Shown here: piece after piece, positions 1 to 63,737 of the stretch
Numbering within the stretch: the stretch's first letter is position 1
How the letters are laid out: every line of letters begins with the position of its first letter
From: Astropecten irregularis
Taxonomy: Eukaryota > Echinodermata > Asteroidea > Paxillosida > Astropectinidae
Reading direction: 5' to 3'
DNA: 64,000 nucleotides
NCBI GenBank assembly: GCA_963971285.1
Contig: OZ020245.1
Coordinates: 20,102,983 to 20,166,982 of the forward strand
Made by a program: the position numbers and the translations under genes
Notes under the pieces: model-generated
What the model saw: only the letters and a program-made list of their open reading frames with translations
The model's database searches: none
What the model was told of the DNA's origin: nothing

Positions 1-660
1 CTAGAGCAGACTAGTCGAAACGTTGAGACCTAATTGCGAGAAGTGCAAATGATATAGAAGTACAAACGATATAGAAGTGCGAAAGTACGAACGATTATTA
101 CATGGTGTTTCCGCAAACCGATCCACATACCAATTGTCACCATGCAAAGCCTCAAATCTTTCTTAAGAGTCAAAGGGATGACTACAATAAAGGATTGGTA
201 AAGGACACTGTACAGTGCTTGCATCTTAACTGATTGGCCATGTACATTGAATAACACATCTGTGAAAGCTTGGACCCAACCATGCCAGCCAAGTCATAAG
301 GAAATAGTACTAAAATGACTCAACAACTTTTTTTCACCCCCCCAAAAAATAGCAATAGCTTTTGATGTACCCGAGATGTAAATTTTATTTGACTATTTGC
401 AGAACCTCCCTGAATCTACCACAGACCAAGACTGTTCCAAGAATCCCATGGGCATTTTAATAGGACTTGATCCAAGTTGAGCCATCAAGATACAAAGTTA
501 CAGTACCTGGTTCCTCTCTGTTCCAGGTCCCTCAAAATTGTCTGCAATACCAAATACGGCTCTAGGATTTTGGATGGTAAGGGATTCATGAGTGACAGAC
601 CTTCATGCTGGGCCTAATATATTTCACGATGGTCAGAGAGGCTGAAGCACAAATAGCTCC
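1..660. other. BIRC6 intron, no recognised element
   Basis: AT-rich intron sequence downstream of the last exon in the window. I see no coding segment or clear repeat in it. Confidence 0.6.
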
Positions 661-980
661 TATACAGTAATCTGAACACAAGTTTTTGAAGGGCGCCCTC
701 TTTTGATTAAAAAGAAAAACTGCGGTGGTGTTGGTTTTTTTTTTGTGTACAATCCGAGAAGCCGGAAAGCTAATCATGAGCAAAAGACTGGTGGGGAAAT
801 CCGGGAGATGTTGTCCATGTCGAATTTTCTTCTAACTCTCTGTGTTCCTTTCAGGAATGAATCACACACCATGTACCGAGCCACAGTTGTAGTGCATTTG
901 GATCGATAAACACCACCGCAGTTTCTTGTTCTAATCAAAAGAGGGCGCCATTCAAAACCATGTGCTCGGATTAATGTATA
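661..980. repeat. MITE family L (TA-flanked, Tc1/mariner-like ends)
   Basis: About 320 bases with inverted ends: TACAGTAATCTGAACACAAG at the left and its counterpart GCTCGGATTAATGTA at the right, with GCGCCCTCTTTTGATTA in inverted orientation inside both. A second copy lies at 23969-24306 and a fragment at 43078-43150. Confidence 0.75.
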
Positions 981-1090
981 GATTATTCAAATTTGGAATG
1001 CAAGTGACCCTTACACAAGGAAACTGGTCTTGCCAAAAATTGACATTTGGGGCTGGAATACTGTTGATTAAGGTTGTTTTGGTTACGTAC

Positions 1091-2023
1091 CACAGACATC
1101 TGTAACTAGGGTTCCTACTGTTGTCGTCATCTTAGGTTCCATAACTCTGAACTTGTGGCCGACGCCAAAGCGAGGGTGCGAGGCCCCAAAGCTGGTGACT
1201 TTGCCCCGCCCTTTGTACAGCTGGCACTCCCCTTGGATGTAGACCAGGACCTTCTCGTCTTCGAGCATGAGCTGCAGGATCAGGCGGCGGGTGAAGCCCG
1301 AGATGGCCAGGCGCACGCCGGCCTGGCTGCTGCGACTGCAGGCCACCTCGCACACCACCTGGGCCAGCAGCCTCTGGTTGGCTGGGTGGCAGGAGATGAC
1401 ATGGGTGAAGAACGCGATCGTCGAGGTCTCAACGGCCGAGCGCTGCTGCGAGGTCATGACCTTAACCTTTGGTTGAGCACTGGCTGCCGCCGTTGTGCGG
1501 AGCTGCACAATATTGGAGTTGACGCTGCACAGCAGCATGAGCAACGACGACCAGAAAATGCTGCCCTCCGGTCCGCCCAGCCAGTTCTTCATCACCAACT
1601 CGCTGCTGAGTTCCGTGAACAGATCCAAAATTGGGGCGATCTTGTCGGAGGTTATATGGATCACCGACACCGTGCTGCCATCAAAGCTTCCAGTGCTGTA
1701 AGTCCGCGGGGACGACAGCCCCTGTCCCTCGATCAGTTTATACGAGTCCGTCTGCCAGGCCGGGCTTTCCTCGGTGTCTCCCTGCCGGCTGCGATAGATC
1801 TCATAGTTGCAGAAGTCCATCAGTGCGTTGGCCAGCATGTTGGGAAAGTTGGACTCCAGGAGAATCCTGATGGATGCCGGTGACTGCGAGGCAAGGGCCA
1901 GTGTGGACAAGTGAAGCTGGTCCAGCATGTTGATGTGTACCGGACGGCTGGGTGAGTGCTGGCTGGCACCCTTGGTGTCGTCCGTCAGACTCCGGCCAAA
2001 GTCATGAGCATCCTTGCTATCAT
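1091..2023 (-). CDS. BIRC6: BIRC6 exon 47, last coding exon in the window
   Basis: Residues 3704-4014 and one further base. Acceptor ATTCACCAG, donor TGTG/GTACGT, phase 1, so the protein continues left of the window. LALASQSPASIRILLES, KNWLGGPEGSIFWSSLL, AFFTHVISCHPANQRL and ILQLMLEDEKVLVYIQG match vertebrate blocks leading towards the ubiquitin-like region. Confidence 0.96.
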
Positions 2024-5000
2024 CTGGTGAATTATAAAGAAGCCACAGATCATTTGAGATTCGAAAAAAATATTGAAAACTGAAGAAATGAATCACTTAT
2101 CTTCTCATGAGGGTTTCTCTGTAATGCAAATCACTAGATGTAAGGCCAAAATATCCATGTGTGGTCCACTACAGTGGTACACCTCTATAACGAACACCTC
2201 TATACCAAACATTTGGCTATACCGAACATCATCCTTGACTCCCAATTTTTTAATGTACAATGTATAGGCATGCTGAACATTGTTCACTCTAACGAACAAC
2301 CACTATAACAAACAACTTCTATGCATCCCGGCGTGTTTGTTATAGTGGCGTTCCACTGTATTAAAGGAAGTATCATACTTTTTGGTAGCATACCGAAACA
2401 GACATCTTCACAGATTTACCTATAACTTACAGGGTATAAAGATGGTGATGGTAGAAACATACCGTTAAAATGTTTCTGCCTGAAATGCTGTATTTATCCA
2501 GAAAAGAGTAAAACCAATGACTAAAATTTTTTTTTATCTTTTAAAGAGAAAAGACTTAAGAAATACTACATGGCTGTTTTTCACTGTTTTCTCAAAAAGT
2601 GGGCACCGTATGGGACTGAAATTTTCACTGATGACTGTGACTGTATCTTCCTTGATATTTTTGCCCATGAATCTGTATTCATTGAGAAAAACCAAAGTAT
2701 GCTACTACCTTTAAGAAAATTTACTCCTTCACAATGAAAGAAACGAATCAAGAATGAATGTCTCTTGTATGTTATACTTCAGACTGGAAAGAGTACATTG
2801 TCTACTGCAATATGCCACCAGGCCTAAGGAGTAAAGAAACCAGCCCTCAACACTAAAAACAAGACAGATTGGTCTCAATCCCATACAAATAGGTATGGAA
2901 GGGGTACCTAGTCCAAAGCAAGGCAATAGCACTCCGCACTTGCGCTAAAAATAGCAGGCTAAATGCTGTATCGTCACACTGGATCTCAGACAAACATTGC
3001 AACGTGTGGTGGGTGGCCTTGTAAGCTTGTTCATGCATAGTGTACACAATGCGTGTGAGTCAATGTTTGTCTGACATCCGGGGATTTAGTACATGCATGC
3101 GCTGGCCAAATCACTCGTGTGACGTCATTAGTGCAGAGCGCTATTACAAGCTCCTGGGTCACCCACCTGTAAGAGCTTCCTCCAGTTCCATCTCTTCCTC
3201 TGGGGTGTTGATGATTCCCATCCAGGACAGCATGGCAATGTAGAAGGAGGGGTGAACGTGGCACATGGCCGACAGGACGTAGCCTGTAGCTTGCTTCAGG
3301 GGTGAGCTCAGCGGCACCACAACAGACCATTCATATAGGGAACTGCAAATAAAATATAAAACTTAAATTTTCAAATGGAACCCTTCGTATTAAAGGTACA
3401 GTACATGTTTGGTAACATACCTAATTAGAAATGGTCACAGATTTGTGTATAACTTTCAGGATATGAAGATGGTGCTGGTAGAAACATACCATTAAAATAT
3501 TTCCAGCTGGTTGATTACTCTGGGGCCACTTTCACGGCCTTGCTTAGCTTAGTGTATCACTTGTGATTGTTCTTCAGGCTGTTCACTGACCATGAATATC
3601 AAATGGTGGTGTTAATGGTGGTTTGTTTTATTGGGCAATACATCTTTGTGGTTTTGTGCTTAGCAGCTCCATGAAATTGGACCCTGATCCTGTGTCAAAT
3701 AATGGCAAATTCATTCAATGACTAGATTTAAAAAATAAATGCTTTACCTGAACAAGTCCTTGGTGATGAGGCTTCCCAAGTCGTAGGGCGCCTTCATTTC
3801 GTGGCTGGACCAGATTATGGAGGCCACGGCCATGATGTGGGCAGGGGCGGGGCTCAGGAGACTGACCTCAGTAGGGGAGAAGGTGAGGGGGCTTCGATGG
3901 AAGCTGCTGTTCTTGTGCAGGTGGACCCTGGCCGTGTCTCCCAACCAATCAAGAAGGGCTTGAACCCTGATGGCGGGGGAAAAAAGGTGTTGGAGTGTCG
4001 AAGATGGATTTCACTTTGAGAACATACACACAATTCAAAAGTAGGAAGCTTGATTGGTGATTTGCATTTAGTTTGTTTGAAAGCTCACTACTTAGAAAGG
4101 AAAGGGTTAATCATTGTGGTAGATACAGGTAGGTAATCAATGTCACGCGATGTAACAAGCAACCAGCAACACGACACCCGGTGACATTGATCACCTTTTT
4201 TCCTTACCTCACTACTCATAACTTTATGAAAACTTTCCCTCTGAAATGCTGCCATATTAACAAAAAGTTTTGAAAAACTGGAAAATTGCACTGCCTGATT
4301 TCAAAAATATGAACATTTGATGATATTTCCACAAGTTAGTATTATGATATGGTACACAGTAGTAACGGAGGGACTAGCTGCCTATCTACTGATCATACCT
4401 TTCCCTGGTGCCCTGGTCTAGAGTGGTTCCTAGCTGGTAGATGATGTCCACTGTGGACTCTGTCGAGGAATCGATGTTACGACCCATCAACGGAGAGCCA
4501 TTGTCTGGAAGAGAAATTTGAGCACAGAAAGTTTTTATTGAGTGACTATTTAAGATAATTAATTTGCAGTAACGCCATTAGTCATAAATTATATGCTTTT
4601 TTGAGTTGTTTGGCGTAAAAAAGATCTGGTTAACTCAATGTTTCGGGCTGTATACTCTGGCAGTCTTCAGGAGAACGAGTGACTCTTGATAAGTCACTTG
4701 CATACCGATCATGATCCAACAAGGTCGACCCAAAGGGATATATGTGGGCAATTAGAGAAGCACTGAGGACCTTTCTCAAAGCTCGGCTCCAGCTCCGCCT
4801 CCATTTCGTGAATCCATTTCAAAATTACAGGTATCAAAATAGAGGCTTTTGGCTGCAGTTAGGAAGTAGATTTTCTGGTTTGAAAAGGACAACATAGCTT
4901 CAGCTTCAATGGCAAATCACAACCTATATTTTCAGCGTATGAAAACAGAGACGAAGCCGGAGCCGGAGTTGCAGTCGAGCTTTGAGAAAGGCCCTGAGAC

Positions 5001-8000
5001 AACATCCTTGCAAGTCTGTTGCATATTGATCAGGATCTCACCGTCTTCGCTGCCATAGATGTTCCGCAGGATGATGTCGAAGAGTGTCAGACCCACCTCG
5101 GTGCTGCACAGGCCCAGCTTGAGCAGGACAGCCTCGATGCTGATGGCGTGCTCCTGGCAGTGGGGTGACAGCAGGAGGGACGTACAGGTGGTCAGCAGGG
5201 AGGGCATGGCAGAGGCCGTGGTGGCAATGGGGGCCTCTAAGTGAGGGGCCTGGACCAGGCAATGGTGAAGGAGACGCAGCCATCTCATACTGGAACAGAG
5301 AAGGAAGGTCCAGGATTAAAACAAGTAGGATATTATTTACAGAAATCCCAAGTGATATTTGGGGCCAATTTCATGGAGCTGCTAAGCACAAAAAAATTGC
5401 TAAGCACAAAAAATTGCTTAGCACAAAAATGTATTGCCCAATAAAACAAACCACCGTCAAAAAGTCCATTTGATGTTCATGGTCAGCAAACAACACCCAA
5501 AGAACAATCACAAGCCATACATAACACATGGACATTTGGTCGTTAACCTTGTTTTTATTAAGACAGAAATGTCATGCTTAGCAAATTTGTGTACTAAGCA
5601 GCGCCGTGAAATTGGCCCTGGTGTTTTCAAGATGAAGACTACATATTTTGACAAACTTCACTCATTTTTACAGATAAACATTTATTTCTAGTTGCCTTTT
5701 TACACATTCTTAGGGCCATCTTGTGTCCGCAGTGTTATTTGCCCTAATGTACCCAGTTGAAACAGTGTGAGATACCACATGACCTTGTGGTCAATGACAG
5801 AGTAATCAGCAAAGTAAAAGAAAAGGGAAAGAGAGATTGCCAATAGACCTTATTCACGGTGCATCCATCCTACATCTGAAGCAGTATAATCAAACCGAGG
5901 CTTGGATTCCAAGTAGTCTGGTACCTGTTTTCTTTTTGAATTGGTGTTATCTTTTCCAAGGGGTATACAAGGAAAGTGACAAGATGAATATGTCGTGAAT
6001 AAGGCACATTGCTGTGGCTATAACTTTGTAAGAGCACCTGTCTGCTATGAAACATAGACCATTTACGAAACGGAGGCTCAGGCTCAAAATAGATGCTTTT
6101 GGCTGTGGTTCTGAAGTAGATTCTCGGGTTGAAAAGGAAAACACAACTTCAGCTTCAATGAAAAACCACAACCTATATTTTCAGCATACGGATGACAGAG
6201 CTGGAGCCTGAGCCTGAGCCTGAGTTTCGTAAACGCCCATAGGCTGCGTGTCAATATCCAGCCATAGTAGGCCCAGGAAAAGACTAGCATTACTCAGGGG
6301 AGAACAGGAACAAGACCTGCAAGATAGGAAGGGCTATGGGGGGCTGTCCACCTTGCATGAATGGCTACTAATGATCATAAATGCTAATGACCATCTGACT
6401 CTGACCAGGCCTACCTCATTTTGGTAGCGTGATCTTCCCAGGGCAGGGCCAGGCTCTGCTGGGCCGTGCTTGTCCCACTTCCGTTACCGCCACCGCTACC
6501 TCCGCCGTTGCTGAACGCAGCCGAACCAAGCAGCATGATCTGCGACAGGCCGATGGTGCTGGAGTCCAGAGGCCGGTGCAAGCGCAGGCAGACGGAGGTC
6601 ACCACCTCGGGCCGGGGCAGCTGCAGCTTGATGTAGGTCAGGCCCGTAGTGGAGACAGGAGGACAGACGGGGGTGGGCGAGGAGCCCAGGGCGTTGCTGA
6701 TCTCAAAGGAGACTGAAGATGGACAGGCTGAAGAGACACAAACAACAGAGAAAAAGGATTCTTCAGTTAAGATTCCGTGTATTTAGATTCAAAGCATTCC
6801 TACAATTTGCATCAAAAGAAAGTCGATGTGGTAGAAGTGAACTTCACATTGGATGAACAATGCTGGTTATTGCAAGTAACAATAATACAAACATAATTCT
6901 GACAACCAACTAGCGAGTCCAAAGTTGCTCATCTTTGACCATAAAAAATATTTGTTTTCAACCGAAAGCTGTCCTGGTTTGTTCAGGATACAGTATCGAG
7001 TGATATCCCATAGTAAAAGACTAAACATCATGAACATCTTTCTGTCAGATGAATTGACACAGAGAAGCAATAACGTGATCGTCAGACTAATTCTGTGGGA
7101 CATGTGGTCGATTTCACTAAACTCTTTGTAACTTTATACTATCAATCGTAGGACTTTGGATGCATTGAAGTCCTACTTGGGACAGGTCCAATGCGATGGG
7201 TTATCTTTCGTAACTTGAGCCACGATCAATCGCAGTGCTTCGTGAAATCGACCCAGGTCACACACGTACAAAACATATTCAGCTTCGCAATGCAATCTGC
7301 AGAGAATGCACAATGACATTGAATCCTTGGGACACTTCACATTAGCGTTGACAGCCGGGACTTACTTGCAAGGGAGGTCAGGTGAGGTTGGATGTGCACT
7401 TCCTTCAGCAAGACGGCACTGGGTAGGGATATCGTCAGGTCGCACCAGGTCTCCTCCGGGTAGAAGTGGTAGGACCAGGCTGCCGATCGAGCTCTCCGAT
7501 GTGGCGCAGTGGGTTGGAGTAGAACCTCTGCCGGCTGAGCTGTTGGACTGCTTGAGTTAATGCCACCTGCAGAACCAAAACAGAGCCATAAAATATCAAA
7601 AGTGAATGCAAGTAACAAACTTCTGCAAACTGCTCATCAGAGCTTGGAGTTAGGAGGGGCTAGACGTGTTTCGATAAAGATCCTGCTAGGATCGATACGA
7701 GCCAGGCTTCCAAATAAAAAGAAGTGGTTAAATAGCATAGTGGATGCTCACTCCATAGAGCTATATTAAAATTACTAGTGCGCTAGCTCCGCGTTCTCCG
7801 TGCGTAAATGCTTTGAAGCATTCCTTGGCACAGTCATTTTGTATTTGTGTGCGTGTCTGTGGAACAATTAAACTATGACTGGAATGCCTTTTGAAGAGTG
7901 TACTCTATATGCAACGCGCAAGTACGTGCGAGTATGTGCAAGTACGCGCAAGTACTGAAATGCAGAGTGTGTTCGTGCTCTGCGCAAAATGAAACACGCA

Positions 8001-11000
8001 TTTACCGAAGGTGCGTCAGATTTTGGGCGTATTGAGCATCGATAATGCACTTGATAGAACACAAACGCAGGTATGCAAATAGACGTACAAGAAACGTACA
8101 CAATTTTGTGTTTTCCATAGGTTTGTGCACAAACATGGATGCGCCCAACAGGCATCACTCTGTACACGGAGCTAGTGCTCTAGTATTTTTAATATAACTC
8201 TATGGCTCACTCCAACCAAAAGAGATGCCATCAAGCAAATTCCGGGTTGAAATGTGGAAACCTAACTCAGAAGCAGACTTACCAAAGGGGGCAAAGTTCG
8301 TCAGCCCTTCAGCATTTTCGGTTTCAGCAGCTGTGGCCGACGAGGAGGAGCTGTTCGTCTTGGACCAACGTGAGGTAGAAGCGGCATTTCTCAGGGACGC
8401 TCCCAGGTGCTGCATGATGGCCGAGATGTTACTGGGGGAGCTATCGATGAAGGAACGATTGCTGGCGACGAGGTTACGACATATCAGTTGTATACCGCCT
8501 GCAAGGAGAGGGTTAAACCATTTCAAGACAAGATATCAAAATGACCGTGTCTTACACTCGTTTGAAACGCTGTTCAGTGTGTTGACTGACATAATGAACA
8601 AGTGAATTAAAGGTAGTATCATACTTTGGTGTTTATCAAAGAATTCATGGGCAAATATATCAAGACAGATACAGTAACAGTCATCTGTGAAAATTTCAGT
8701 CCCATACGGTGCCTACTTTTTGAGAAAACAGTGAAAAACAGCCACAGTATTTCTTATTAAGTCTTCTCTCTTTTATTTTTGATCTTTTAAAAGATCAAAA
8801 AGATTTTCGGGCGTTGTTTTACTAATTTCTGGATAAATTACACCATTTCAGGCGGAAAGTTTGTAATGGTATGGTTCTACCACCACCATCTTCATACCCT
8901 GTAAGCTATACGTAAATCTGTGAACATTTCTGTTTCGGCTTCTTACCAAAGTATGATACTACCTTTGAGGGTGATCATGCCTTCACTTACCCATTTCATG
9001 GAAAGACTGCAGGGCCCCTTCTGGAGCCAGCACCTTGAGAATCAACCACAGCAGGGGTTCCGAGAGGACACATGAGGACCCTCCCTGGCCCCGACCGTTT
9101 CCCCCAACCCCTCCTAGATAGGTCAAGAGAGGCCGAAGCATCAGATTCACCGATGTGACCTTGGCAGCGATGGTGCAGAGAATCTGGAAGATGTTATCGC
9201 CGACCGACACGGGCTCCATGTTGGCGATGGGGTCTGTGGGCATCTGGTAGAGGGAAGGGCTGGTGTTGAGGTTGAGGAAGGAGGCCATCTTGTTGCTGTT
9301 ACAGTGACTGAGGGAGGACAGAAGGAGAGGGATAGAGTCACCCATCGTCAGGACTGCATCCGCTATGCATGGAGTCACAGGCTCAGGAGCTGCAGGCGGG
9401 GCAGTCTCTGAGGAACGTTCCTTATCGTCGTCACTGAGAGAACTGGATCGGGGCATGGCTTGTGGGCTGGATGCTGATCTCGAGGTAAGATTCCTCGTCT
9501 CGGAACTTGTCTCAGCAGGCTGGATAGTGGCAGCCGTCATGCCCAAGGTCCGTCCGGGCAACCCCTGCTGGAATCTGGCCGCCGCGTCGTGGTCCAGCGG
9601 GATCTTCACCAGCTGGTTAACCAGCTTCAGCAGCTGGCACATCAGCAGGTTCCGGTTGGCCTCGCTGCTGTTGCTCCGCGTCTCGCCCGGCCGTAGCATG
9701 CTGGCAAAGAGCCCTCCGAAGCAGGACCGGGCGTTGATGCTGGAGGTGGTGCCCCGCCTGCTGAGACTGATGTGGTTGTGCACCAGGAGACTGATGGCAT
9801 CGATGGTGTACGTGATGTTGCTGACGTCAGCATGGTTGTACGTCTGCTCGTTGACAAACTCCATCATCTTGACCTGGGCATCTAGAGGTCCGGTACCCGT
9901 ATGGAATGCACCTCTGTACATGCTGAAAAACATTTGGGATTGTTGTATCTTAATTCACTGATGAAATTCAGAGAATATCCAGCCTCCTAACAATTTATGG
10001 AAAGCAGATGTAGGTTTTTCGCTACTAGTATGATGGTCATTCACAGCCAGACCAAGAATTCATCTTGAAAGGTTCTCATTTTCAAACGGATGTTTCATGC
10101 CTTCAATCAAAGACACAAACACTGCATCATCACTGATACCTCACAGTAAAAAACATCACTGATGCAATACACAGAATGCTTTTTAGTAGTGTGTTCACAC
10201 CAAGACTTTCAGAGGCCAGGGTTTTATAATTATCATAGTTCATTTTGCCTTTGATTCTGTTTTCTTACTTACTTTAACCTTTACATCAAATGTGATGTCA
10301 CTTTACAGAGTTGGAATTAAATGTGCTATTGAATGGGAGATTTTGGAGCATCGGTCTTCAAGTCAACAGCGCACGCGCACGCACACGCACAACAAAGCGC
10401 ATGCTCACAATTGCACAGCGCTCAGAGATAGCAAAAACAGACTTCTGTCGACGTCTCAAAAGTCTTCCATTGAGTTGAGTTGAATTGAAATTGAATACAG
10501 CTTGCTCGTACAGAGCCCAATCTGGACAATAAAGGTCACTTCACAAGAGCATGACAAACTATCTGAAGAAGAAACAGTTGAACAGGGTGAAGATGAACTT
10601 ACTGTGGCTCTGCTAGTATCTGTACCACTCTCAGTAACAGGCTGTTCAGATCAGGGGCGTTGGCGGCTGGAGAGGAGCCTAGTCTCAGCTTCATCCTCAC
10701 CAGAAACTCATACATCGCCTGTGTGACTGTGGGACCCACCTGCAAATTCAAACCAAAGTGATCACATCACTGACATCAGGGCAAGTCATACTGCAGCAAA
10801 ATGACCTGTGGTCTATTTCACAAAGCAATTAAGACTGATCTCAAACAGTGAATCAATCTTAATTGCGTAGCAAAAGTTTGCCATCGCCATACAAATCACT
10901 TAGGAAATACTGACAGCTCAAAGTTAATAAGATTAAGCTTAGTGTTTATGTGACATTGACCCCTGGGGTCGATTTCACCAAACTCATCGTAACTTATTAT

Positions 11001-26000: not shown

Positions 26001-29000
26001 ACAAAGGGCACTTCGCCAATGAATGGAGCTCGACCAGTCTCCATTGTTAGGATAGACTTGACTGGCACTTCTTGTCAGTCTTTCATCATGCCGCTAATCC
26101 GGCCGAACTGTATAACAAAGGGAACAATGGAATCTGAGTGGAAGAGTTTCCTGGCTGTAATTGAGTGACAACTCAGTTATTCTTCTTCAAGAGGTGCAAC
26201 TTTACTTCGGCCGAGCCGTGAATAATAAGTTTGGCAGTCGACTAGAGTGGAATTATTTTGCGCAACCAGTAGCAAGTTCCTGACAATTTCCATGCAGTAT
26301 ATCGGGCATTTTACTCTTTGTATACATGGATGTCTAAACCATCGGTACGAAGGTCTGTTTGCCGTATCCCCTGAAAGTTGATCCTTCCCCTTAAAATAAA
26401 TCCTGTTCATCTGAAAAATACATGTAAATAAATCCTGAGCCCCTGAAAAAAAAAATCGGCCAGCAACGAATGCTGCGGGCCGGGTGTGTGTGCTTTAATT
26501 GTGAGGGTGAATGTAGGTCTTTATGGCAGTTTGCCGAATTTTCCTGAGTATTTTTTTTATAAAGTATTAATGTTTATATGTATATGGCTCATTTTATTTC
26601 TTTTAAATGCTTTTTGATGCCTGTAAGTGGCGGTTAACCGCTGTTGGTTTTCACTGAATAAATAGGTATAAAGTAAAAAAAAATATAGGCCTTTTTATAA
26701 ATACCGATATTCTTGAAAAAATCTTCGGCGCACGGGATGAAAACGATCTCGGGGATCGACACTGACGGTTGCCCTGTGCTTTTAGTAATAGAAATAAGAT
26801 GTCGGACGACTATTAAAAGTATTATTAAAGTTTCAGCGGCCGATCGGGCAATTAAAAAACGGCACCGCTATGTGAGATTCTGGTCTCGATGTGGGCGAGT
26901 GTTCGGGAGTAGGCCTATTGCAATATTCTATTGCTGGAGCAACCTTACAGAATATTCAGAGTCGATCATGAGTGGAATTGCTCAGCGTGACAGGCTTTTT
27001 GGGACGAGTAAAAGCGGATTCTTACCGTAAAATTATGTAGGCCTACCGAAGCCGGCCGCGCCGCCACGGTATCGGTAACGCACTATAGTGACTGACTCCA
27101 TTTATACACGCACGTAAAGTAGGCTTCCGGCCTACACGTGGTTGAAACTATTTCGCTGGTGCACGGGTCATTTAAGATAGTGGCTTTTACGGGCGCGGAT
27201 ACCAGGCTGACTGCTGAGCGGTGTGCGTGCATGTGGCCGTGGTTGCCCGATGATTTTGCCTACGGCAATGCGCCGATCCGTGACTGGAGGCCGGGGAACT
27301 TACGGCACGATATTTTTACATCAAGCACATGAAACGAATGTTTCTACCAATAGCGAATTGGAAGAAATAACCGAGCGAAATTCAAGCAAGATTTAGCCGG
27401 TAGGCCCCTACCTTGGATTCGAGAACAATCACAGCCATACCTAATTCTCGCAACGATATGCATACATATCCGTTCGGTACGTGTACACTCTGCAGGCGTG
27501 TTTTCTGTTTTCTTTATTTTTTCGGGCTTCATGATTGGGCCACAAAAAATGTTACGAAGATTTTAGTGGCCCGAATGGGTCACCAACAAACCAAATAGTT
27601 AGTGTCGAACCCTTCCTAGAAAAAAAAACATGAATTCCGATCCCCTGGAAAGTATCCGTACCCCGACCGTCTTAAAGCAACCCCGACAACTAGACAGAAA
27701 AAGACCTCCAAAAAAATTACGATCACTAAAAACCACGATCCCTAAGAGAAAAAACATAGACAGTTTTTAGGTTTCTCATATATACCCCGAAACATCCCCA
27801 AACTGATATAATCCATCCCCAAAAATATCAATTCTGATCCCCTTGAAAAAATGCTTGCCATGGGATAAAACGATCCCCGAGAAAAAATAACAAATCCCGA
27901 TGCCGTGAAAAAATAAATCCCAACCCTCTGAAACTTGATCTCTGTGAGAAAAAAAAACATCACCAACTTGAAACAAAACTTGACTCTCTTCCAAGAATTA
28001 TTGACAGCTGTATTGTTAGGAACGCAGCCCTAGCCATATCAGATATTATCTGGCCTATAATAATTCCCAAAAAAGACCCCCGTGAAAAATAGAAGAAAAT
28101 ACCACAAGCAAGAAAAATCACGATCCTCTAAAAAAGCAAAACAAGAAAAACAAAACAAAACAGAATCCCCTGAATTGAAGACGGCTTCCCGATCCCAAAT
28201 CTTCTGGATCCCACCCAATCCCCGAGAGAAATAGAAGAAAAAGAAATAAATGCACGACCTTCTGAAATTATGGATTAGTCAGGATCCCCTGAACCCCAAC
28301 AAAACGATCTCCAGAAATATATTCATATCGCTAGAAAAATAAATTCCGATTCCAGTGGGATAGATTCATTACATGAAAAGGAAATCCGGAGCCCCTGAGA
28401 CCCAATAAGAAAAAAATCATCAAACCACATCCCGGGGAAAAAGACAGTCTTCCCCTATTATAATAACTATAAATCCGGCCCGATCCCCTTGAAAATGTTT
28501 GCCAGGGGATAAAACAGGTTTTTGTTGGCTTTCTAAGAAAACAAATTAAATCCCGATCCCCTAAAACTGAATGTATCCCGTCTGAAAAAAAAACGATAAG
28601 ATTTCAGAAAGTACTTTCTTCTCCTCTCCAAATAAAGTTCGAGAATATATAAATTTGCGCTTTCAGCCCCTTCGCTGAAATGTTTTATGGTATCCACGCA
28701 AGAAATAACTCGTCATATAATAATCCACCAAAAGATCCCCGTGAAAAAAATCATGACAATGAAGAGAAACCACGATCCTCTGAAAGAAAAAAAACCACAG
28801 AATCGGATTCCGTTGGTTTCCCCAACGATCTTCGGAAATATATTTCATCCCCAGAAAAAAAAAAGAATAAGACAAAAATTATCCCTGAATAAAATGCCGA
28901 TCCCGAGACAAAAAAGGTGGAAACAAATCACGACCACCAAAATGCACAACGATCCGCTGAAAGTAAAAATGAGTTGGGAAAAGGAAATCCCGAGCCCCTG

Positions 29001-32000
29001 AAGAAAGACCCCATTGTGACTATTATTTTATACTGATGATGCTGAAGTCTTCAAGGAAATGTTGTAAAGTTCCAGCATTGGGATGACTGTAGTCGACCGC
29101 TCAAGAAATAAACCCGTCGGCAATGTCCTACCCTCAAAGAAATTCCCGTAATAGGCTGATGTCAAGTATGAATAGGGCAGGCACAATAGGACTCCGATAA
29201 TGAGCTATGCTTGGCTGAACTCCAGGCCGGCCATCCTGAGAGATGGTGCAAACGTTCAGATTAACTGGGTCTCTTTTGTAGGGGGATTAGGGCACACAAT
29301 GGACCCGAAAAAGTTTGCAGGGCCGCGGCCTGGTGAAGACTCTTCTCGGGAAAGCCGAATCAACATTAACGCCCTGCTCCCTAAGTCAAATGCCATCATA
29401 GAAAGTACATGTTAAAAAAACAAATCCCTCTTCAAAACAATATTGAAGTATTGTGACATAAGGCATAGCTTAATACTATGCTGTAGTTCTGCCCAAGATG
29501 GCATCGAAAGGCCGCCCTCAATAGTGGCCCGTGTTGCCACATTACACTGTGCATTTGCTTCTAAGCACAATAACAAAGGGGTCATTCTGTAAAATTTGGG
29601 AGGGGAGGACCGATTAGCTTTCTTCTTGTCCCTGTCATTAACCGGCACGTGATGTTTGTTAAGCTTTACCTGAATGCATCCTGTCAACGATGAGGACATG
29701 AGACGGTGGTGGGTTGAGGAGATTCCGCACCAGGAGAGGGTTGCTTGGCGTCAGGTCAACACCCAGCTTGGAATTATCTCCCTGAATTTCAGGAAAAAAA
29801 AAAAAAAGTTCATTTTTTGATCGACTGCTGTTTCTTTTTTATGTCTCCATCATTACTTTCACAAATACGAGCAGGGGTTAATTTCACCAAACTCATCGTA
29901 ACTTACAGTCAATCGTAGGACTTATGATGCTTTGCAGGCCTATGCAGGATACGATGGGTTTTTCTTTGAAACTCAAGTTTCGCTTCGTAAAGCTTCGCTT
30001 CGTAGCGATCGTAAAGCTTAGTGAAATCGACCCCTCTTATCCTTGAGAGAGCAAGATGAATACTTGAAGGCAAATCAAAATGTGAAACGGCTAGTGGCCA
30101 CTGTTATTGTATGCTGCATAACATCAGCCACTGCATTTGAAATGGATGCTGACTTGCAGAAAATGATTTCATATCTTGGCAAATTTTAATGTTTTTGCAA
30201 AAACAGCCGCATACAATCACAAGCAATATGCATATGCATTGCGTGATGTTTGGTTGCTCAAATACAAATGCGTATAAAGTGAAACACACTGGCTTCTTAT
30301 AGCCACTTAGCAGTTCCATGAAGATGGCCTTTAATGACAAGATGTCCTACAACCAGAGTTGTTGACTCGAGTCTGTGACTTGGTCTCGAGTCCGACTCGA
30401 GTCACCAATTTTCGTGACTTGCGACTTGACTTGACTTGGAACAAAATGACTCGAGACTTGACTTGACTTGAGAAAATTTGACTTGCGACTTGACTTGACT
30501 TGTGAAAATTTGATTTGGTTACAACTCTGCCTGCAACTGACCTCCCCTCGGACAGTCCTACTCACCTTAGTCTTGCACTTCCCACCCCCACTCTTGTTCT
30601 TCTCCAACCCCTGCAGCACGCAGTACCCAAACATGTCCCCGTAGTCCCAACCGCCCTCCCCTCGGACAGTCCTACCCACCTTAGTCTTGCCCTTCCCACC
30701 CCCACTCTTGTTCTTCTCCAGCCCCTGCAGCACGCCGTACCCAAACATGTCCCGGTAGTCCCACCCGACCTCCCCTCGGACAGTCCTTCTCACCTTAGTC
30801 TTGCACTTCCCACCCCCACTCTTGTTCTTCTCCAGCCCCTGCAGCACGCCGTACCCAAACATGTCCCGGTAGTCCCACCCGACCTCCCCTCGGACAGTCC
30901 TTCTCACCTTAGTCTTGCACTTCCCACCCCCACTCTTGTTCTTCTCCAGCCCCTGCAGCACGCCGTACCCAAGCATGTCCCCGTAGTCCCAACCGCCCTC
31001 CCCTCGGACAGTCCTACTCACCTTAGTCTTGCCCTTCCCACCTCCACTCTTGTTCTTCTCCAGCCCCTGCAGCACGCCGTACCCAAACATGTCCCCGTAG
31101 TCCCACCCGCCGGGTGGCGGCGGAACCGACAGGAACCCCATGCTCTCGTTGGGCGGGGTCAGGGGTGGAGTCATGAAGAAGGGCGTGTTCTTGGGTGTGG
31201 TCGGCAGGAACTCGTACATGTGGTTGCCGGGCATGCTGTTGGTCGTTGCCGAGGCGCTGGTCTCCTGCAGTTTCTGTTCCAGTTTCTGCTTCTGCAATTG
31301 ATTATAGACGATACAAACAACATTTGGAAAACGTTTAACTTTATAGAGAATTGCAATTTAGTTAACAAGAATCAAACCTCACTGCTTTTTCCTCTATCCC
31401 ATTGAAGGTTGATTGGCTCATTCAATAAGGGCCTGATTTTTTTGCACACGGGATCTCAGATCTGCGGATCCACGTCCCATTCAGGATACACTAAAATGGG
31501 ATCTGGATCAGCAGGATCCGTGATCTTGTGCGTGAAACAAACAGGCCCCAATCCTTTCGACAATTAAATTTGAATGATTTTATTGGACACAAAAAGATTC
31601 AGTATTTGAACTGTTTAAAGCCATGTGATTCAAGGAAGGTAATGCGTTCAAAGACAAGAACTGAAAATAACAAATATTGCTGAGACCAAGGGCAAATGTG
31701 TCGACAAGCGCAATGAAAATACATGGGCCAATGACTGTACAAGAGCATACGCCTGAACTGGAGTACTGGAACTTAAAGAGGATGTTCAACACTCAACAAA
31801 CCTTGCTTATGTAAGAACTATTATCCTTAAATTACTTGAAATGAGAAAAAAAAAATTATCTTACACGGAATACAGAAAGAGAGTCTTTTTTTGATGATTT
31901 TTCTCTCAGCCCGCAAGCTCCCCAAAATTTCAGTTTGTCTGAATTTCGTCAATGGGGACAGCAGACAAATTTGTGTGATTGTGTGACGTCAGATATGGGA

Positions 32001-35000
32001 GTCTTTTCTTTTGAATAAATCATCCAAAAAGACTCTCTTTCTGTGTTCAGTGTGAGATAAATATTATTTTTCTCATGTCAAGTAATTTAAGGATTATAGT
32101 TCTAACAAATAAAGTGAGGTTTGTTGAGAGTTGAACATCCTCTTTAAGAATGAACTGAGGAAATTGAGGAAAAAGTCACAGCCGGGTAAATTCTCAGCCT
32201 TCCTAGACTGGAGAAGATAGGCTTATGAAACCATAGTGACTAGAATGATATAAACAGACCTGCTGATTGAGCTTGATCAGTGTCTGTGTCTTGTGCTGTA
32301 GCAGCTGAAGCTGTTGCTCAGCGGAGGACATCGTTGCTGACAGCGACGAGGTCAGAGATTCGGGCATGGTCGGGTGACCCGTATTGATAGCTACTGAACC
32401 CTGCACACTCTCTGCACCTATAAGGAGGACCATCCAGGACATTGAAATAATTACACTGATCCAGAAAGGAAAAATAATATTGAACAAAAAAGACGCACCT
32501 GCAGTTGTGCAATCTCATTTTTGGCAAAAAAAATAATTTAACCCCTTCAGCCCGGGATTATTTTCAGCCTTGCTTGTTCCGACCTCATTATCAGCCACCG
32601 GTCACAATAGAGGTCAGCTGGCCCGGCTTTGTGTGCAGGGCTCGGCGTAAACAATGCAGACACGCATTGGTTGAATAGCACCGCACAAAAGATCGCATTC
32701 AAGGCGGACTCTAATCCGTTCACGCCCAGATGTTCGGAACTCAGAGATTGCCGTTCTCTCGAAAATGCAGATCTTTTCAAATGCAAATTATGGGGGTGAA
32801 TGTACCACAATGAGCGGATCTTTGTGGACAATAAAGGTTCCCAGAACCTCTTGTTCCAGACAGTACCCCCATTCAATGCATTTCAATGGAAATAACAAAG
32901 AAATCATGAATATTCTCAGGCCATGACATGGGGCTGCTATGGATGCTCCCCGGGCTGAAGGGGTTAACTGAACTTCTCTCGTTCAATTGAGAGATTATGA
33001 GACTAAGAAAGATGCTCGGACCTGATCCAACACGTTCCACGTGCGTGCCGTCGCTGGTGCTGCAGCAGACGAAATGCAGCGGCTCCACTTCCAGCAGACC
33101 CCTCATGAAGTGGGTACCACTCAGGGGGCTGCCGATGGGGTCGCTGCTCAGCTTGCTGCCCCCCTGGCTGCTGCCCACCATGTCCGGCACGTCTCCGCTG
33201 AACCCCGAGGCCGGGATGCCCGAGGGGTGGGGGAAGGTCGACGGCATGGCATTGGAGGTGGCTGATGATGAGGAGGAGGAGGATGATTTCGGGGCCGGGC
33301 TCATGACGGGCGGCTCCATGTCAAAGAGGATTGGGTCTAGGGGCGTACCGTATAACCCAAATCTGAAATGAACCATACAATACATTGTTATTCTTCAATT
33401 CATAAAAAATTATCATGATAAAACCTGTTACTTTAAAAAAAAAAATGGTGCTGGGAAGAAATGTTACCTGGCTCTGAGGATGGCGTGTTCGGGGAGCGTC
33501 CTGTCGGCCAGCTCGTTGGCGGCTTCCATGAGGAGGCCAGTGCAGGCTTCCCAGGTGGTCTCCGTGTCCTGCTGCTTGACCATACCCAGCATGGAGAAGA
33601 ACCAGTGCATGGAGCCAGAGGACAGGCAGGCCGGCAGCGAGGGCATGATGCGCAGGAGACTCTGCAGGAGAGCCACCTTCAGGTCCAGGTACGTGCCGTA
33701 GGTCAGGTTGCGCTTGGCCCAGCTAAATGAAAAACAGACGAAGACAACAACAAAAAATTGAAACATTAAAACGGAAATTGACATTCTCGAGACCTCCACA
33801 AACTGATGTTGCGTTTCACAATGGGAGACTTTGGAGAACCGGTCTTGAGTCAACAGCGCACGCGCAAACCATGCTTGCGCAATTGGGAGCATGCGCGCGT
33901 TGCTTTGCGCGTGCGCTGTTGACTTGAAGACCGGTTGTCCAAAGTCTCCCATTACCATTCATCCTGATATGGAGACGGATCTAGTGGACTCATGGATAAC
34001 CAGAGTGCAACTCACCCCATGCAGAGTGCCAAGAGCTGACTGCACTTGTGGGCGATACTCCTGTTGGCTTGGATGTAGCAAGCCTGCACCAGGTCGGCTA
34101 GGTGCGTCAGGGTGGTCCCTACTAGATTGGTGCAATTGGCCACACTGTAAATATCAACCGACAAGACACAGGTTATCGTCAAATGAATTTTATTTTGGTA
34201 TTTATCTTAATCTTAATTTTTATTTCAATTGGTATTATTTGTTAATTAATTAGAGCCTTTGATCACTTTGTAAGTGGAATTGTCTGCACTTTATAAATAA
34301 AAATCCTTATTATTATTATGAACACAAGGGAAACTGGGATGGGTAGCTCAGTTGGTAGAGCGCCGGTACGGCATTTTGGAGGTCGCTGGTTCGAGTCCCA
34401 CTCAAGATGCACTCAATACACATCCATGCTTTGGCACATTGGGGATACAATAAGACAGTTATGGATTATGGTGCACCATGTGAAGCTTACTCTTTTTTTT
34501 GGGGGGGGCGTGGGTTGGGAAAAGTGATGGTACTGTTTCAAGGTCCTAAAGTATTACACCTGAACATGCACTTTGTCAAAAAAAGGTTGCAGCATTGCTA
34601 ATGTTGCATGTTTCTTCAATGATCTTTTGGAAATAGCAGTATGTGCACGGTTTCATGGCTTCTAACTGCCAAATGAACAAAGATAATTCACTATCATGGA
34701 CACCGCCAACATAGGGCTAGGTAGCTCAGTCAGTAAGAGTGCCAGTACAGTATTCCAGAGGTTGCTGGTTCGAATCCCGCTCCAAATTAATTTTTCTCTG
34801 TTCACTTTACAATGAAAAAAAGAAAATGGTTACAAAAGGAAATCATTTTCATTTACCTGATTGGCTCACATATATGAACGCTTGCAATCCAACAGAGTAC
34901 GTCCAGACATATCTGCTGAAAGTGCTGCCACGTTGTTATGTCAGAAGGCGGGGGCGCCAGACCAATCACGCCCAGCACCAGACTCTCCTGGAATGCCATG

Positions 35001-47000: not shown

Positions 47001-50000
47001 CTGGATGCTAGTAAGAATGACTTGCAGGGTTTAGGGTTAATGACATCACCATCACAAACAAGGCCTGCTGTTAAAGGGAGCATATAGTTATTACAGGAAG
47101 CATATAGGATTTGCAAAGATGTGCGTTTTGGCTGAATTTGGTACTTAAACACAAGTGAAGGTCTTAAACTTCCTTACAGACTATGTTTCATGTATCTTTT
47201 TACGCTTAATTCATCTGAATAGCAGAAATACAGCTGAAATAATCTTGCCCCCCTCCAAATCCTTCACAGTTACACCACGCTTTCGAAATGCAACTAAAAT
47301 CGTTCGCACGAACGATCTTTTTTAAAAGACACTAAATCTTGATTTCATTGAAAAACCCAGCATCTAATGAACCAAGATTTCCCATGGTGACTGTTTGCAT
47401 TGTTTACGAACTGTTAAGTCCATTTTCTGTCTCAAACTCAATAATTTTTTTTGGGGGAGGCCTTGCAAATCCTGTACGCTGCCTTTAACAATGACCAGAA
47501 AAAAACCTCCGGACTCACTTGTAGTTCATATGGGGCCAGGTCAAGAACGTCTCCCGCCGCGCCGCCTCACTGTACATCTGAGCTCTGTCCACCGTGTGGG
47601 AGCCAACGCTGCGGCTGGGCTCCGGGTACAGTGCCTGCAGCCGGTCGGTGATGGCTGCGGCGATGGCGAGACCGGTCACGTGCTGGTTGGAGCGGCGCAG
47701 CTCGTCCAGGAGACTGCGGCAGACCGAGCGGAGGGCACAGAGGGAGACACGCAGGAGGATCGTGGCCCACTGCAGAGGGAAAGCAGTCAACGTCACTATA
47801 AAGGTTGCATTTCAACGCATGGAACAGCATCCAACTCTCATTTACAACTAATCAAGATCTATAATTTAAGAGCTAATACCAACTGCTTTTTAACTATAAA
47901 AGAGACCTGAAATGCACATGGAAAACTGAATTGAGGGGCCACATTTCAAACCCTAAAAAATCTTCAATGCCAAAAAGGGCAAAAGTAGAATTGCTTAAAG
48001 GCCATGTAACACTTTTAAAAACACATACATCACAACAGCACACAGAATGGTAAACTAGGCTTTCCATCTCCAACATGGTTCACATCACTTGAAGAAGTTT
48101 CAAACACAAACAAAGGTTACTACAGAATTACAAATTCTGTAAGAATTTGAAATGCAAAGGTGATGATGATTAAAATAAGATAAATTGCCCAATTACCCCT
48201 AAGCCTAAATTAGGTGGGTCAGACCCAGTGTTGTAGTCAAGACCTGGAAGTCCGAGACCAAGACCGAGACCTGATGGTCTGAGACCAAGGCCGAGACACC
48301 AGGAAGAAAGAGACCGGTCATTTGATTGCATTTGATTAGGTGATTCACTAGCAATCCAAGACATTTGGTCAGTGTTGTAGTCAAGACCTGGAAGTCCAAG
48401 ACCTGATGGTCTGAGACCAAGGCCGAGACACCAGGAAGAAAGAGACCGGTCATTTGATTGCATTTGATTAGGTGATTCACTAGCAATCCAAGACATTTGG
48501 TCAGTGTTGTAGTCAAGACCTGGAAGTCCGAGACCAAGACCGAGACCTGATGGTCTGAGATCAAGGCCGAGACACCAGGAAGAAAGAGACCGGTCATTTG
48601 ATTGCATTTGATTAGGTGATTCACTAGCAATCCAAGACATTTGGTCAGTGTTGTAGTCAAGACCTGGAAGTCCGAGACCTGATGGTCCAAGACTGAGACC
48701 AAGACCGAGACCTGTTTCTTTGAGACCCGAGACCACGGCTTCGAGACCGAGACTTTTGCAGGTCGAGACCGAGACCGAGACCATGATATTCGAGACCGAG
48801 ACCGAGACCGAGACCACACATCAACAAATGTGAAGATTTTACAAAAGTACAGTAGAAATACAATACATTATTAAGTACAATATGTACAAAAGAAAACATT
48901 AGCATCAACACACAAAGACACAAAACAAATACTTGTTGAAGACAACAATTTCAAAATATTTAAAACTGGGGCTGGCACATTTTGTCTGACGGCATTCATG
49001 TCAAACTCAAACAAACTGACCGGTACCTTTGTGACTTTGTGGTAGGACTGGGACTGGACGGAGCTGCCCACCAGACTCAGCTCGGTCTCCAGCCGGGACT
49101 GGACCTCATCCACGTACTCCTGCTGACTGGACGATGCCTTGATGGACTTCTTCAGGCATTCTAGTAAGTGGGAGGCCTGGAGAAAAATCGTTAACAATCC
49201 GTGGGTGAGATTAATTAGGCAATGATCCCTCATAAACAAGCAAACTATGCAATATACCCAAAGGCAAGTTTACATTTCAAATCAATCAACAAGAAGAAAA
49301 ATGGTACACCAACAATTTTTCACAAAGGTTGATTTTAAAAACCCATTTGAACATATTATTTTGTGTATCACATACAAAATAATTGAATAATTGAATTTTT
49401 CAAACTGTAGTCATTGAAATATTGATACTATTTGCAGACTGACATATCAACAGAATATCACCTGAAAATATCAAACTAAATTATATTGGTACATTGAAAA
49501 ATTTAAATTAGTTTTAATAATAGCACTGGTCTTACATCATGCATCACACAAAAGTTAATGCTACGAAGTAACTGAATCAATAATGACATTTTAAGGTATG
49601 ATTTGAACTTGTTATCGGTTCCAGCAGTTCTGACATGCGGGAAGGAGAATGTCCCAGAGGCAAAACTTTGTATTTTGTGACAATGTTATTTGTTATCTTA
49701 TTTACATGGTACACATGCACAAGAACATGGCCATTTTGAATATTTTAAAATATTAGTTGACGCCATAGAGCTATATCAAAATTATTAGAGCGCTAGATCT
49801 GCGTTTTCCGTTCGTAGACGCTTTGAAGCCGTCCCAGCGAAGTCATTTTGAAATTGAGTGCATGTCCGTGGAACAAGAAAAGTTTAACTGGAATGCCTTT
49901 CGAAGAATGTACTCTAAATGCAACGCGCAAGTACACCGTATGTGCAAATGTTACAGGAAGTACTAGGTCTAGAAGGTGCATCAGACTTTGGGCGTATTGG

Positions 50001-54453: not shown

Positions 54454-54562
54454 AGTTTCCATTGTGTTTAATTTCGATTGTTTAAAGGTACAGTATAGAA
54501 TTGGTAACACATAATTATACCCAAACAGAATTGTTCACAGATTTACCTATAACTTTCAGGGT

Positions 54563-57067
54563 ATGAAGATGATGCTTGAGACTTTCTTTGAGGACTTTTC
54601 TGTTGTTCTTGATGATGTCATGAATATGTTTAATTCCAGAGTCATGCTAGAATTGACCTGTATGGGCGATTTTAATGTTGATTATTTAAAGTCCAGTTCA
54701 AAGTATTGGTCAAAATTAAAGCAGCTTTTTAACAATTTTGCAATGAATCAATTAATCACTTGTCCTACAAGAATAACTCAACTGAGTTCTACTTGCATAG
54801 ATCATATATGGACCAATCGTCCTTCTATGTACACTCAATTCGGAACTAACGACATTAATCTTAGCGATCATCTTCTTATTTTTACTGTCCGTAAGTCTGC
54901 AAAAATCCTAAAAGAGCACAAATATATCCAGGCTCGTTCATTCCGGAATTTTAATGAACACATTTTTAATTATGACCTTAAACAGCAATCATGGAATACA
55001 CTGCAGTTATTCAGCAATCCTAATGCAGCATGGGGTGTTTTTAAGGACATGTTAATGAATGTTTGTGATATCCATAGCCCAGTCAGAAGCTTGAGAGTTT
55101 GTACCAAGAAAGCGGAATGGATTAATGATGAATACTTAGAACTTCGGCGTAAATCTATGAGGGCCAAACACCTAGCTAATGTTGTAAGAAATGATGGGTA
55201 TTATCGAGCAGCCAAGGTCCTGCGAAATAAACTGAATACTCTGGGCGTTAAACTTAAAAGGCAGTATGTTACAAAAGTTTTGCACAATAATGTTGGAAAT
55301 ACTAAACAAATTTGGACCTTTCTTAAAAGTATGCTTCCAAGTAAGAAATCAGCTTATACCCATTTTGGAGATGATGAAAGGAATCATGAGGCTGCTAATA
55401 ACTTTAACGATCACTTTGCTAGTGTTGGAGTGAATCATGATGCTCAGTTTGATACAATGTCTGAAACTGGATTGGTCCTGGATGGTAACAGTTTGAGTGG
55501 TAATGATAAACATATTTTTAAATTTTGTCCAGTCACTCACATTGAGGTATTGAAGCTCCTGAAGAAATTGCCAGTTGGAAAAGCTTTTGGCATGGATGGG
55601 ATTAATGGTCGTTTCTTAAAATCTGGTGCCAGCGTTCTTGCCAAACCGCTAGCTGTAATTTTTCAACTAAGCTTAATGACTGGTATTGTTCCTAACGATT
55701 GGAAATTGGCCAAGGTTACCCCAATTCATAAAGGGGGAGATGTTCATGATCCTAATCAATATAGGCCCATTTCTGTTATTTCAATTGTTATGAAAATTTT
55801 TGAGCGTATCATCTACCAACAATTATTCCATTTCTTAACAGAGAATGATTGCCTTGCCCGGGAGCAGTCGGGTTTCAGACCTCTTCACTCCACACATACG
55901 GCTTTACTTGATGTTTCTGATTATTTGCTCAAACAGCTGGATATTGGTCAATTTGTTGGAGTAGCATTTTTGGATCTTCGCAAAGCATTTGACACAGTTA
56001 ATCACAATATTTTGATTCGGAAATTACATACCTTGGGTGTTAGAGGTCTGGAGCTCGACTGGTTCCGGTCTTATCTTAATGGGAGGACCCAAATGACTAA
56101 AATAGGAAATTCTTTATCTAGCAAAACCTACATCAACTTTGGAGTTCCTCAGGGAACTATACTGGGCCCTTTATTATTTACCATTTTTATCAATGATATT
56201 ACGACTGTGATTGATCATACTAAAATTGCACTTTATGCTGACGATACTGCATTGTTTTATCCTAGTAAAGATGTTCAGCAGATAAATCTCTTTTTAAATC
56301 ATGACTTGCAGAAAATTTCTACTTGGCTCACTGACAACAGACTTCAACTAAACATTTCCAAGTCAAAAAGCATGTTAATTGGTTCTGCCCAGAAGCTTGC
56401 TAGGTGCTTAAATCCTAATATTGATATTTTTGTTGACGGTAACTGCCTGGATCAAATCACCACTTATAAATATCTTGGTGTTCATATTGACAGTAAAATG
56501 AAATGGACTGAGCATATTGAGCATATTGAAAAAGCTGTTTCTAAGAGAATAGGTGTCCTGAATAGACTAAAAAATATTTTACCTGTGTCTACCCTTAACT
56601 TTCTCGTCAAAAGCCTTATCTTTCCCCAATTTGATTATTGTGATCTTGTTTGGAGTAATGCTTCAAAATCACTAACGCAACGGCTTGATGTAGTTTTGAA
56701 TAGAGCTGGACGGACAATTCTTAAGGCTCAAACTAGAACATCAGCTTCTGTTATCAGGAATAGATTAGGATGGAAGACTCTGCAGGCAAGACGAGATATC
56801 CATATAAATACCATGGTTTTTAAATGTCTAACTGGTAAAGCTCCTATGTATCTTAATGTTTTTACTCCAGTCAGTGAATCACATAAATATCAAACAAGGA
56901 ATAGCACTGTTGGTAATGTCGTCCTCCCACATCCCAGAACTGAAAGTGGAAGAAGAACATTTAGTTTCAGGGGTGCTCAAGCATGGAATATTTTACCAAT
57001 TAACACAAAAACATGTCAAACTGTAAGCCTAAATACCTTTGTCAACCAACTCAAACAGCTCAATTAA
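54563..57067 (+). CDS. LINE endonuclease (partial)-reverse transcriptase polyprotein
   Basis: An 834-codon frame from a non-LTR retrotransposon that copies its RNA into nicked target DNA. The N-terminal 120 residues are the end of an AP-type endonuclease (GDFNVDYLKSS, STCIDHIWTN, SDHLLIF). The reverse transcriptase follows: NQYRPISVISIVMKIFE, EQSGFRPLHSTHTALLD, motif A FLDLRKAFDTVNHNIL (Asp about 471), GVPQGTILGPLLFTIF and the catalytic YADD (about 558). A C-terminal segment of about 200 residues follows the RT. The type is that of the jockey/CR1/L2 group, and the exact clade is undecided. The first codons, including every ATG in MKMM, belong to the flanking family B repeat, not to the LINE, so this is a chance start and the natural protein would be longer. 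No frameshift or stop interrupts it. Confidence 0.9.
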   Translation: MKMMLETFFEDFSVVLDDVMNMFNSRVMLELTCMGDFNVDYLKSSSKYWSKLKQLFNNFAMNQLITCPTRITQLSSTCIDHIWTNRPSMYTQFGTNDINLSDHLLIFTVRKSAKILKEHKYIQARSFRNFNEHIFNYDLKQQSWNTLQLFSNPNAAWGVFKDMLMNVCDIHSPVRSLRVCTKKAEWINDEYLELRRKSMRAKHLANVVRNDGYYRAAKVLRNKLNTLGVKLKRQYVTKVLHNNVGNTKQIWTFLKSMLPSKKSAYTHFGDDERNHEAANNFNDHFASVGVNHDAQFDTMSETGLVLDGNSLSGNDKHIFKFCPVTHIEVLKLLKKLPVGKAFGMDGINGRFLKSGASVLAKPLAVIFQLSLMTGIVPNDWKLAKVTPIHKGGDVHDPNQYRPISVISIVMKIFERIIYQQLFHFLTENDCLAREQSGFRPLHSTHTALLDVSDYLLKQLDIGQFVGVAFLDLRKAFDTVNHNILIRKLHTLGVRGLELDWFRSYLNGRTQMTKIGNSLSSKTYINFGVPQGTILGPLLFTIFINDITTVIDHTKIALYADDTALFYPSKDVQQINLFLNHDLQKISTWLTDNRLQLNISKSKSMLIGSAQKLARCLNPNIDIFVDGNCLDQITTYKYLGVHIDSKMKWTEHIEHIEKAVSKRIGVLNRLKNILPVSTLNFLVKSLIFPQFDYCDLVWSNASKSLTQRLDVVLNRAGRTILKAQTRTSASVIRNRLGWKTLQARRDIHINTMVFKCLTGKAPMYLNVFTPVSESHKYQTRNSTVGNVVLPHPRTESGRRTFSFRGAQAWNILPINTKTCQTVSLNTFVNQLKQLN

Positions 57068-62171: not shown

Positions 62172-62324
62172 ATGTCGACTGATCCACAGCAACCCACGGA
62201 GGATGTTGAGACCGAGACCTTCGCCTTCCAGGCGGAGATTGCTCAGCTCATGAGTCTAATCATCAACACCTTCTACTCCAACAAAGAAATCTTTCTGAGA
62301 GAGTTGATCTCCAATGCCTCTGAT
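62172..62324 (+). CDS. HSP90: HSP90 coding exon 1
   Basis: 51 codons. The start ATG is the first base after the acceptor [27 protein letters not shown] is invariant HSP90 sequence. Donor GAT/GTAAGT, phase 0. The leader ([14 protein letters not shown]) is longer and more acidic than in most relatives. Confidence 0.97.
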
Positions 62325-63645: not shown

Positions 63646-63737
63646 GTAAGATTAGCAAGTGTGTAGGCTTTCTGGGAAGTTCAAAACATAATCATCAAAT
63701 AACCACAAGGGAAACTGACTGAATTTTGAAGTCATTG

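Follow-up and report, generated by a model that had tools for sequence, protein, structure and literature searches.

Five tandem in-phase copies of a 5′ splice site at the end of a BIRC6 exon in the starfish Astropecten irregularis

Coding tandem repeats usually lie wholly inside one exon. PRDM7 and CBS 844ins68 may be analogues of the array described here. The closest known case that we found is the intron-18 VNTR of human ABCA7, whose 25-bp unit includes the exon-18 donor and starts with the GT of that donor (PMC5954066). When splicing shifts to the donor of the following unit, one unit is reported to stay in the mRNA, with a shift of frame, at a level of 2 ± 1%, and the true retention rate is higher because such one-unit transcripts rise when decay is blocked with cycloheximide; longer arrays are also reported to cause more exon 19 skipping (PMC5954066). 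In addition, introns may be gained by tandem duplication of AGGT segments, as described for a multi-copy 24-bp segment of fission yeast in which introns span two or four of the copies (PMC4974935), and duplications whose length is a multiple of three are reported to allow alternative retention (PMC2891723).

The array of A. irregularis shares with the ABCA7 VNTR a tandem repeat that takes in an exon's own donor and a donor in every unit (5/5 here). The ABCA7 unit is 25 bp long, intronic and out of frame (leading to a premature stop and nonsense-mediated decay), and is present in twelve or more copies that are polymorphic, whereas the starfish BIRC6 unit is 114 bp long, of which 90 bp are derived from the exon, and is in frame and present in five copies in one assembly. 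In ABCA7 a downstream donor is used in the mRNA, as might be the case in the starfish array. The intron-gain cases likewise involve tandem duplication that copies splice-site sequence within a coding gene, and a unit that is a multiple of three likewise permits in-frame retention; however, there the product is a new intron with a copied AG as its acceptor, whereas here an existing donor has been copied. Copy-number variation of coding tandem repeats (PMC1273636) likewise concerns an in-frame repeat able to alter protein length, but the starfish array differs in having its own splice donor in every unit, so that the repeat count could depend both on copy number and on splicing. Tandem copying of a splice site is known from other genes, and five in-phase donor copies carried along with a coding exon end are a variant of this kind of structure. 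No earlier report of such a donor array was found among the matches listed for our queries, none of which combined starfish with BIRC6.

The BIRC6 exon and the array at its end

All positions below are those of the window, the whole stretch of 64,000 nucleotides that was analysed. The relevant features are as follows.

31022..31291, minus strand: BIRC6 exon in its shortest form (number 21 in the count of the initial annotation), 270 nt or 90 codons up to donor 1
30998..31111, minus strand: repeat copy 1, 90 nt of exon end and 24 nt of intron start, with donor 1 GTGAGT from 31021
30884..30997, minus strand: repeat copy 2, with donor 2 GTGAGA from 30907
30770..30883, minus strand: repeat copy 3, with donor 3 GTGAGA from 30793
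30656..30769, minus strand: repeat copy 4, with donor 4 GTGGGT from 30679
30542..30655, minus strand: repeat copy 5, with donor 5 GTGAGT from 30565, followed by intron sequence outside the array
29670..29781, minus strand: next BIRC6 exon, GDNSKLGVD...NPPPSHVLIVDRMHS, 112 nt, in frame after any of the five donors

By sequence similarity the gene is BIRC6, as the initial annotation had named it. A query that ran from the exon, cut at donor 1, through the next exon into the beginning of the one after it, with boundaries placed by eye, matched five different BIRC6 sequences of the PDB, which we take to be human, at E values from 6e-44 to 1e-43; in the best match, residues 24-201 of the donor-1 join align with residues 1691-1861 of 8atm_A. 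The following exons contribute the bulk of this match; with the exon by itself the E value is 0.00017. The aligned stretch is 178 residues long in the donor-1 form and 171 in the BIRC6 chain, and no counterpart of the 38-residue repeat was present in the solved BIRC6 chains in the alignment to PDB chains. One stretch of this alignment is poorly matched, which fits the earlier description of a variable loop.

The array itself, on the minus strand at 31111..30542, comprises five tandem 114-bp copies, each with 90 bp derived from the exon end and 24 bp derived from the start of the intron. Tandem Repeats Finder (TRF) placed it at 30541-31111 with a period of 114, 5.0 copies, 95% matches, 0% indels and a score of 1037, and thus recovered the five 114-base copies that had been noticed by inspection; the limits first given for them, 30541..31110, are one base out of register, and the last exon bases (31022, 30908, 30794, 30680 and 30566) were exact. 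In register, the units are all distinct, with 3 to 7 differences over 114 positions in each pair. The exon with its array has one match in the 475.7-Mb, 168-contig assembly, for which only the best candidates were scored, and within the same scope no retrocopy that would expose a spliced junction was seen. Folding of RNA across the array is not unusual (z -1.15, with 16/100 shuffles folding equally well or better), and Rfam gave no match at gathering scores in 28000-34000. A Pfam search with the frame through the array returned two matches, both below cut-offs (E 0.033 and 0.05), and one with the spliced segment returned none at E up to 1.

The exon 31291..31022 is bounded by the acceptor TTGCAG before 31291 and the donor GTGAGT after 31022, is of phase 0 at both ends and contains no stop; the exon before it ends at about 32260, as judged by eye. 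None of the five possible joins, from donors 1 to 5 into the next exon (29781..29670), contains a stop, in agreement with the exon edge, shared phase and stop-free frame first described. From donor 1 to donor 5, the exon would be 270, 384, 498, 612 or 726 nt long and would encode 0, 38, 76, 114 or 152 extra residues, which corresponds to zero to four of the 38-residue repeats. Since the unit consists of 38 stop-free codons and all donors are of phase 0, expansion leaves the frame unbroken. The open frame was considered as proof of coding and dropped: it is weak evidence because a unit that is a stop-free multiple of three stays open at any copy number, and it carries little weight because an antisense frame across the array is likewise free of stops; a 299-codon antisense ORF spans the array. 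The proposal that splicing could add 0 to 4 repeats is possible as far as the in-frame joins are concerned; coding constraint is not detectable among the copies (see below) and the antisense strand is also open. The placing of all five copies inside exon 21 describes one of five possible outcomes and does not hold if donor 1 is used, since the intron then takes in copies 2-5 as well as the final 24 nt of copy 1. Overall, the observation made in the initial annotation is confirmed and its interpretation is partly supported.

Ten of the 114 columns vary between copies, eight in the 90-nt exon-derived part and two in the 24-nt intron-derived part, densities that do not differ (8/90 vs 2/24, Fisher p 1.0). 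The donor columns are not spared (2/9 vs 8/105 elsewhere, p 0.18). Among variable codon columns of the exon part, five are non-synonymous and three are synonymous, against 200 and 56 possible changes of the two kinds (Fisher p 0.38). Coding constraint among the copies was thus not detectable by the column-density, donor-column or codon tests, which have little power with ten variable columns. Half of the informative-column pairs (5/10) show all four combinations, which suggests that the copies have probably exchanged sequence.

Several other elements were noticed in the vicinity and elsewhere in the assembly. The intron that holds the donor array also has, right after it, a CAAGTC-type short tandem repeat (30415-30517, period 32, 3.2 copies by TRF). 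Another long tandem array in the window (48260-48687, period 132/144, 3.2 copies by TRF), apparently between early BIRC6 exons, contains no strong donor by U1 score and has two minus-strand frames that are stop-free. On the plus strand, an 850-codon open frame (54515-57067) is non-LTR reverse transcriptase-like by translation, and HSP90-like exons, also by translation, are located at 62172-63666, on the opposite strand and past the apparent start of BIRC6. Elsewhere in the assembly, a pattern that we take to represent NG peptides gave two adjacent matches reading KRNGFFYGKRNGFFYGKR, a tandem NGFFYamide precursor. NGFFYamide is reported as a peptide of the starfish Asterias rubens (PMC6156427), in keeping with a starfish source. 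A pattern for the starfish peptide S1 (SALMFamide) gave no match, and neither did GFP, which had been looked for with amphioxus in mind; since the control genomes gave no GFP match either, these empty results prove nothing about the kind of animal.

Strength and surroundings of the five donors

The five donors read AAG/GTGAGT, AAG/GTGAGA, AAG/GTGAGA, AAG/GTGGGT and AAG/GTGAGT from donor 1 to donor 5 (the slash marks the exon edge), so that a donor is kept in 5/5 copies and always in phase 0. Duplex energies with the 5′ end of U1 were -12.3, -9.6, -9.6, -11.5 and -12.3 kcal/mol in an 11-base context and -11.8, -9.6, -9.6, -11.0 and -11.8 over 10 bases. Putative ends of seven exons nearby, located by eye, gave -11.8, -8.3, -10.4, -8.0, -6.3, -6.9 and -8.3 (11-base), so that all five donors are strong, and the usable appearance first noted for each of the GTGAGT, GTGAGA and GTGGGT sites is upheld by U1 pairing. 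The best donor sequence is found in the two outer copies, donors 1 and 5 being equal in U1 pairing and both exceeding donors 2-4 of the three inner copies.

Sites with a U1 energy of -9.6 or lower are sparse in this contig, with 112 in 400 kb of strand (200 kb of the contig, 0.28 per kb), which by simple arithmetic corresponds to a chance of about 3% per 114-nt strand. No strong U1 site was present in any of 14 control TRF rows (period of at least 40, at least 2.5 copies, some of them overlapping). The scarcity of such sites in the contig, together with their absence from the control arrays, indicates that the five donors are copies of a real exon edge and not chance sites. The U1 score is nevertheless crude, since it flags eight sites in the array, namely the five donors and three CGG/GTGGGA sites in copies 1, 3 and 4 (31106, 30878 and 30764), which at -9.6 are level with donors 2 and 3. 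The stretch G000:C8:24000000-24009999 is satellite throughout its positions 1-10000 (period 216, 46.2 copies, 95% matches).

G-runs bound by hnRNP H/F are reported to enhance splicing when downstream of a donor and to repress it when upstream or within the exon (PMC10334793). In the array, runs of at least three G at +7 to +76 number 6, 6, 6, 6 and 1 after donors 1 to 5, which sets donor 5 apart and does not distinguish donor 1 from donors 2-4; this rule, like that for SRSF1 and hnRNP A1 below, is mammalian and is applied here to starfish sequence.

As for the intron-gain (Rogers) model, in which the copied segment has to supply a usable AG acceptor along with a GT donor, pyrimidine counts, a crude measure, are 4-5/20 before each copied AAG preceding a GT, compared with 11 for the acceptor of the exon and 16 for that of the next exon. 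The CTGCAG in the unit is preceded by 10 or 11 of 20 pyrimidines, and it is a conceivable acceptor because this count is not below that of the exon's own acceptor (11/20).

Donor choice and competing explanations

We favour the view that a minisatellite copied a genuine exon edge, with donor 1 mainly used and leaky, in-frame use of the others, and on the sequence we give this reading about an even chance of being correct. A segment of 114 bp that spans the end of the exon and its donor would have been duplicated in tandem and have grown to five copies, with variants probably passed between copies by unequal crossing-over or conversion. The spliceosome would still chiefly pick the first donor (31022/31021), and the downstream donors may be used at a low level or to a degree that depends on the tissue, so that some BIRC6 isoforms would carry additional Gly/Lys-rich repeats of 38 residues in a region of low conservation. 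Donor 1 is favoured because the exon that it yields comes closest in length to solved BIRC6, and because it is unsurpassed in U1 pairing and is followed by six G-runs; low-level use of downstream donors has a precedent in the ABCA7 VNTR, whose next-unit donor is used at 2 ± 1%, a figure lowered there by nonsense-mediated decay. Length polymorphism between individuals may fairly be inferred from the near-identical units. A further extension is doubtful and would make the array a two-level dial of repeat length, in which DNA copy number and the choice among five in-phase donors together set the repeat count; the same doubt applies to its corollary that Gly/Lys-rich repeats in a BIRC6 linker may vary across tissues and individuals.

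The serious rival to the donor-1 reading, which we regard as less probable though a real possibility, is that most transcripts are spliced from the final, intron-proximal donor (30566), all five copies then being constitutive and contributing 152 extra residues as an in-frame coding repeat. Where 5′ splice sites compete, SRSF1 is reported to favour intron-proximal sites and hnRNP A1 the distal one (PMC5585400), and the dominance of donor 1 is weakened because donor 5 pairs equally well with U1 and SRSF1 activates intron-proximal sites. The whole stretch is open, and the codon changes (5:3 vs 200:56) lean to constraint, though not significantly. However, donor 5 is followed by a single G-run against six after each other donor, the solved BIRC6 chains have no counterpart, and the copies differ by Gly/Cys, Gly/Arg and Gly/Val. 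The exon would also reach 726 nt, a length that is conceivable because a 578-codon stop-to-stop frame (42047-40311), a candidate single exon, appears to represent a much larger exon in the same gene.

It is rather improbable that the array is a silent intronic minisatellite, with donor 1 used exclusively, copies 2-5 entirely intronic and the protein unaffected. The equal density of variable columns, the unspared donor columns and the stop-free antisense frame speak for this explanation, although the sequence tests that bear on it have little power. Against it, donors 2-5 are still strong by U1 pairing, and in ABCA7 the next-unit donor is used at about 2% in spite of nonsense-mediated decay (PMC5954066).

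An assembly artefact, with a wrong copy number or a false expansion, is very improbable, since a simple assembly duplication would not yield copies that are all distinct, and the array is situated inside a 38.2-Mb contig. The splicing of mini-introns within the array, in which one copy's donor joins the next copy's CTGCAG (69 nt away and in frame, by reading) and each extra copy adds 15 residues rather than 38, is unlikely on the sequence and, in our estimate, has only a minute probability, for although tandem copying is a reported route to new introns (PMC4974935, PMC2891723) and CTGCAG matches the exon's own acceptor in pyrimidines, the next exon's acceptor CAG is far richer (16/20) and a 69-nt intron would be very short compared with the flanking introns.

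As it stands, the array does not demonstrate a mechanism but offers a clear-cut case that is easy to test. Exclusive use of donor 1 would make it a harmless minisatellite within an intron. Use of the downstream donors would make it a natural experiment on spliceosomal choice among five near-identical 5′ splice sites at even spacing, with all outcomes in frame; extra-repeat transcripts would then escape nonsense-mediated decay because every outcome is in frame, in contrast to ABCA7, in which the retained unit is reported to shift the frame and to subject the transcript to decay (PMC5954066). Such use would also show a minisatellite at an exon edge adding repeats to a protein while the gene remains intact.
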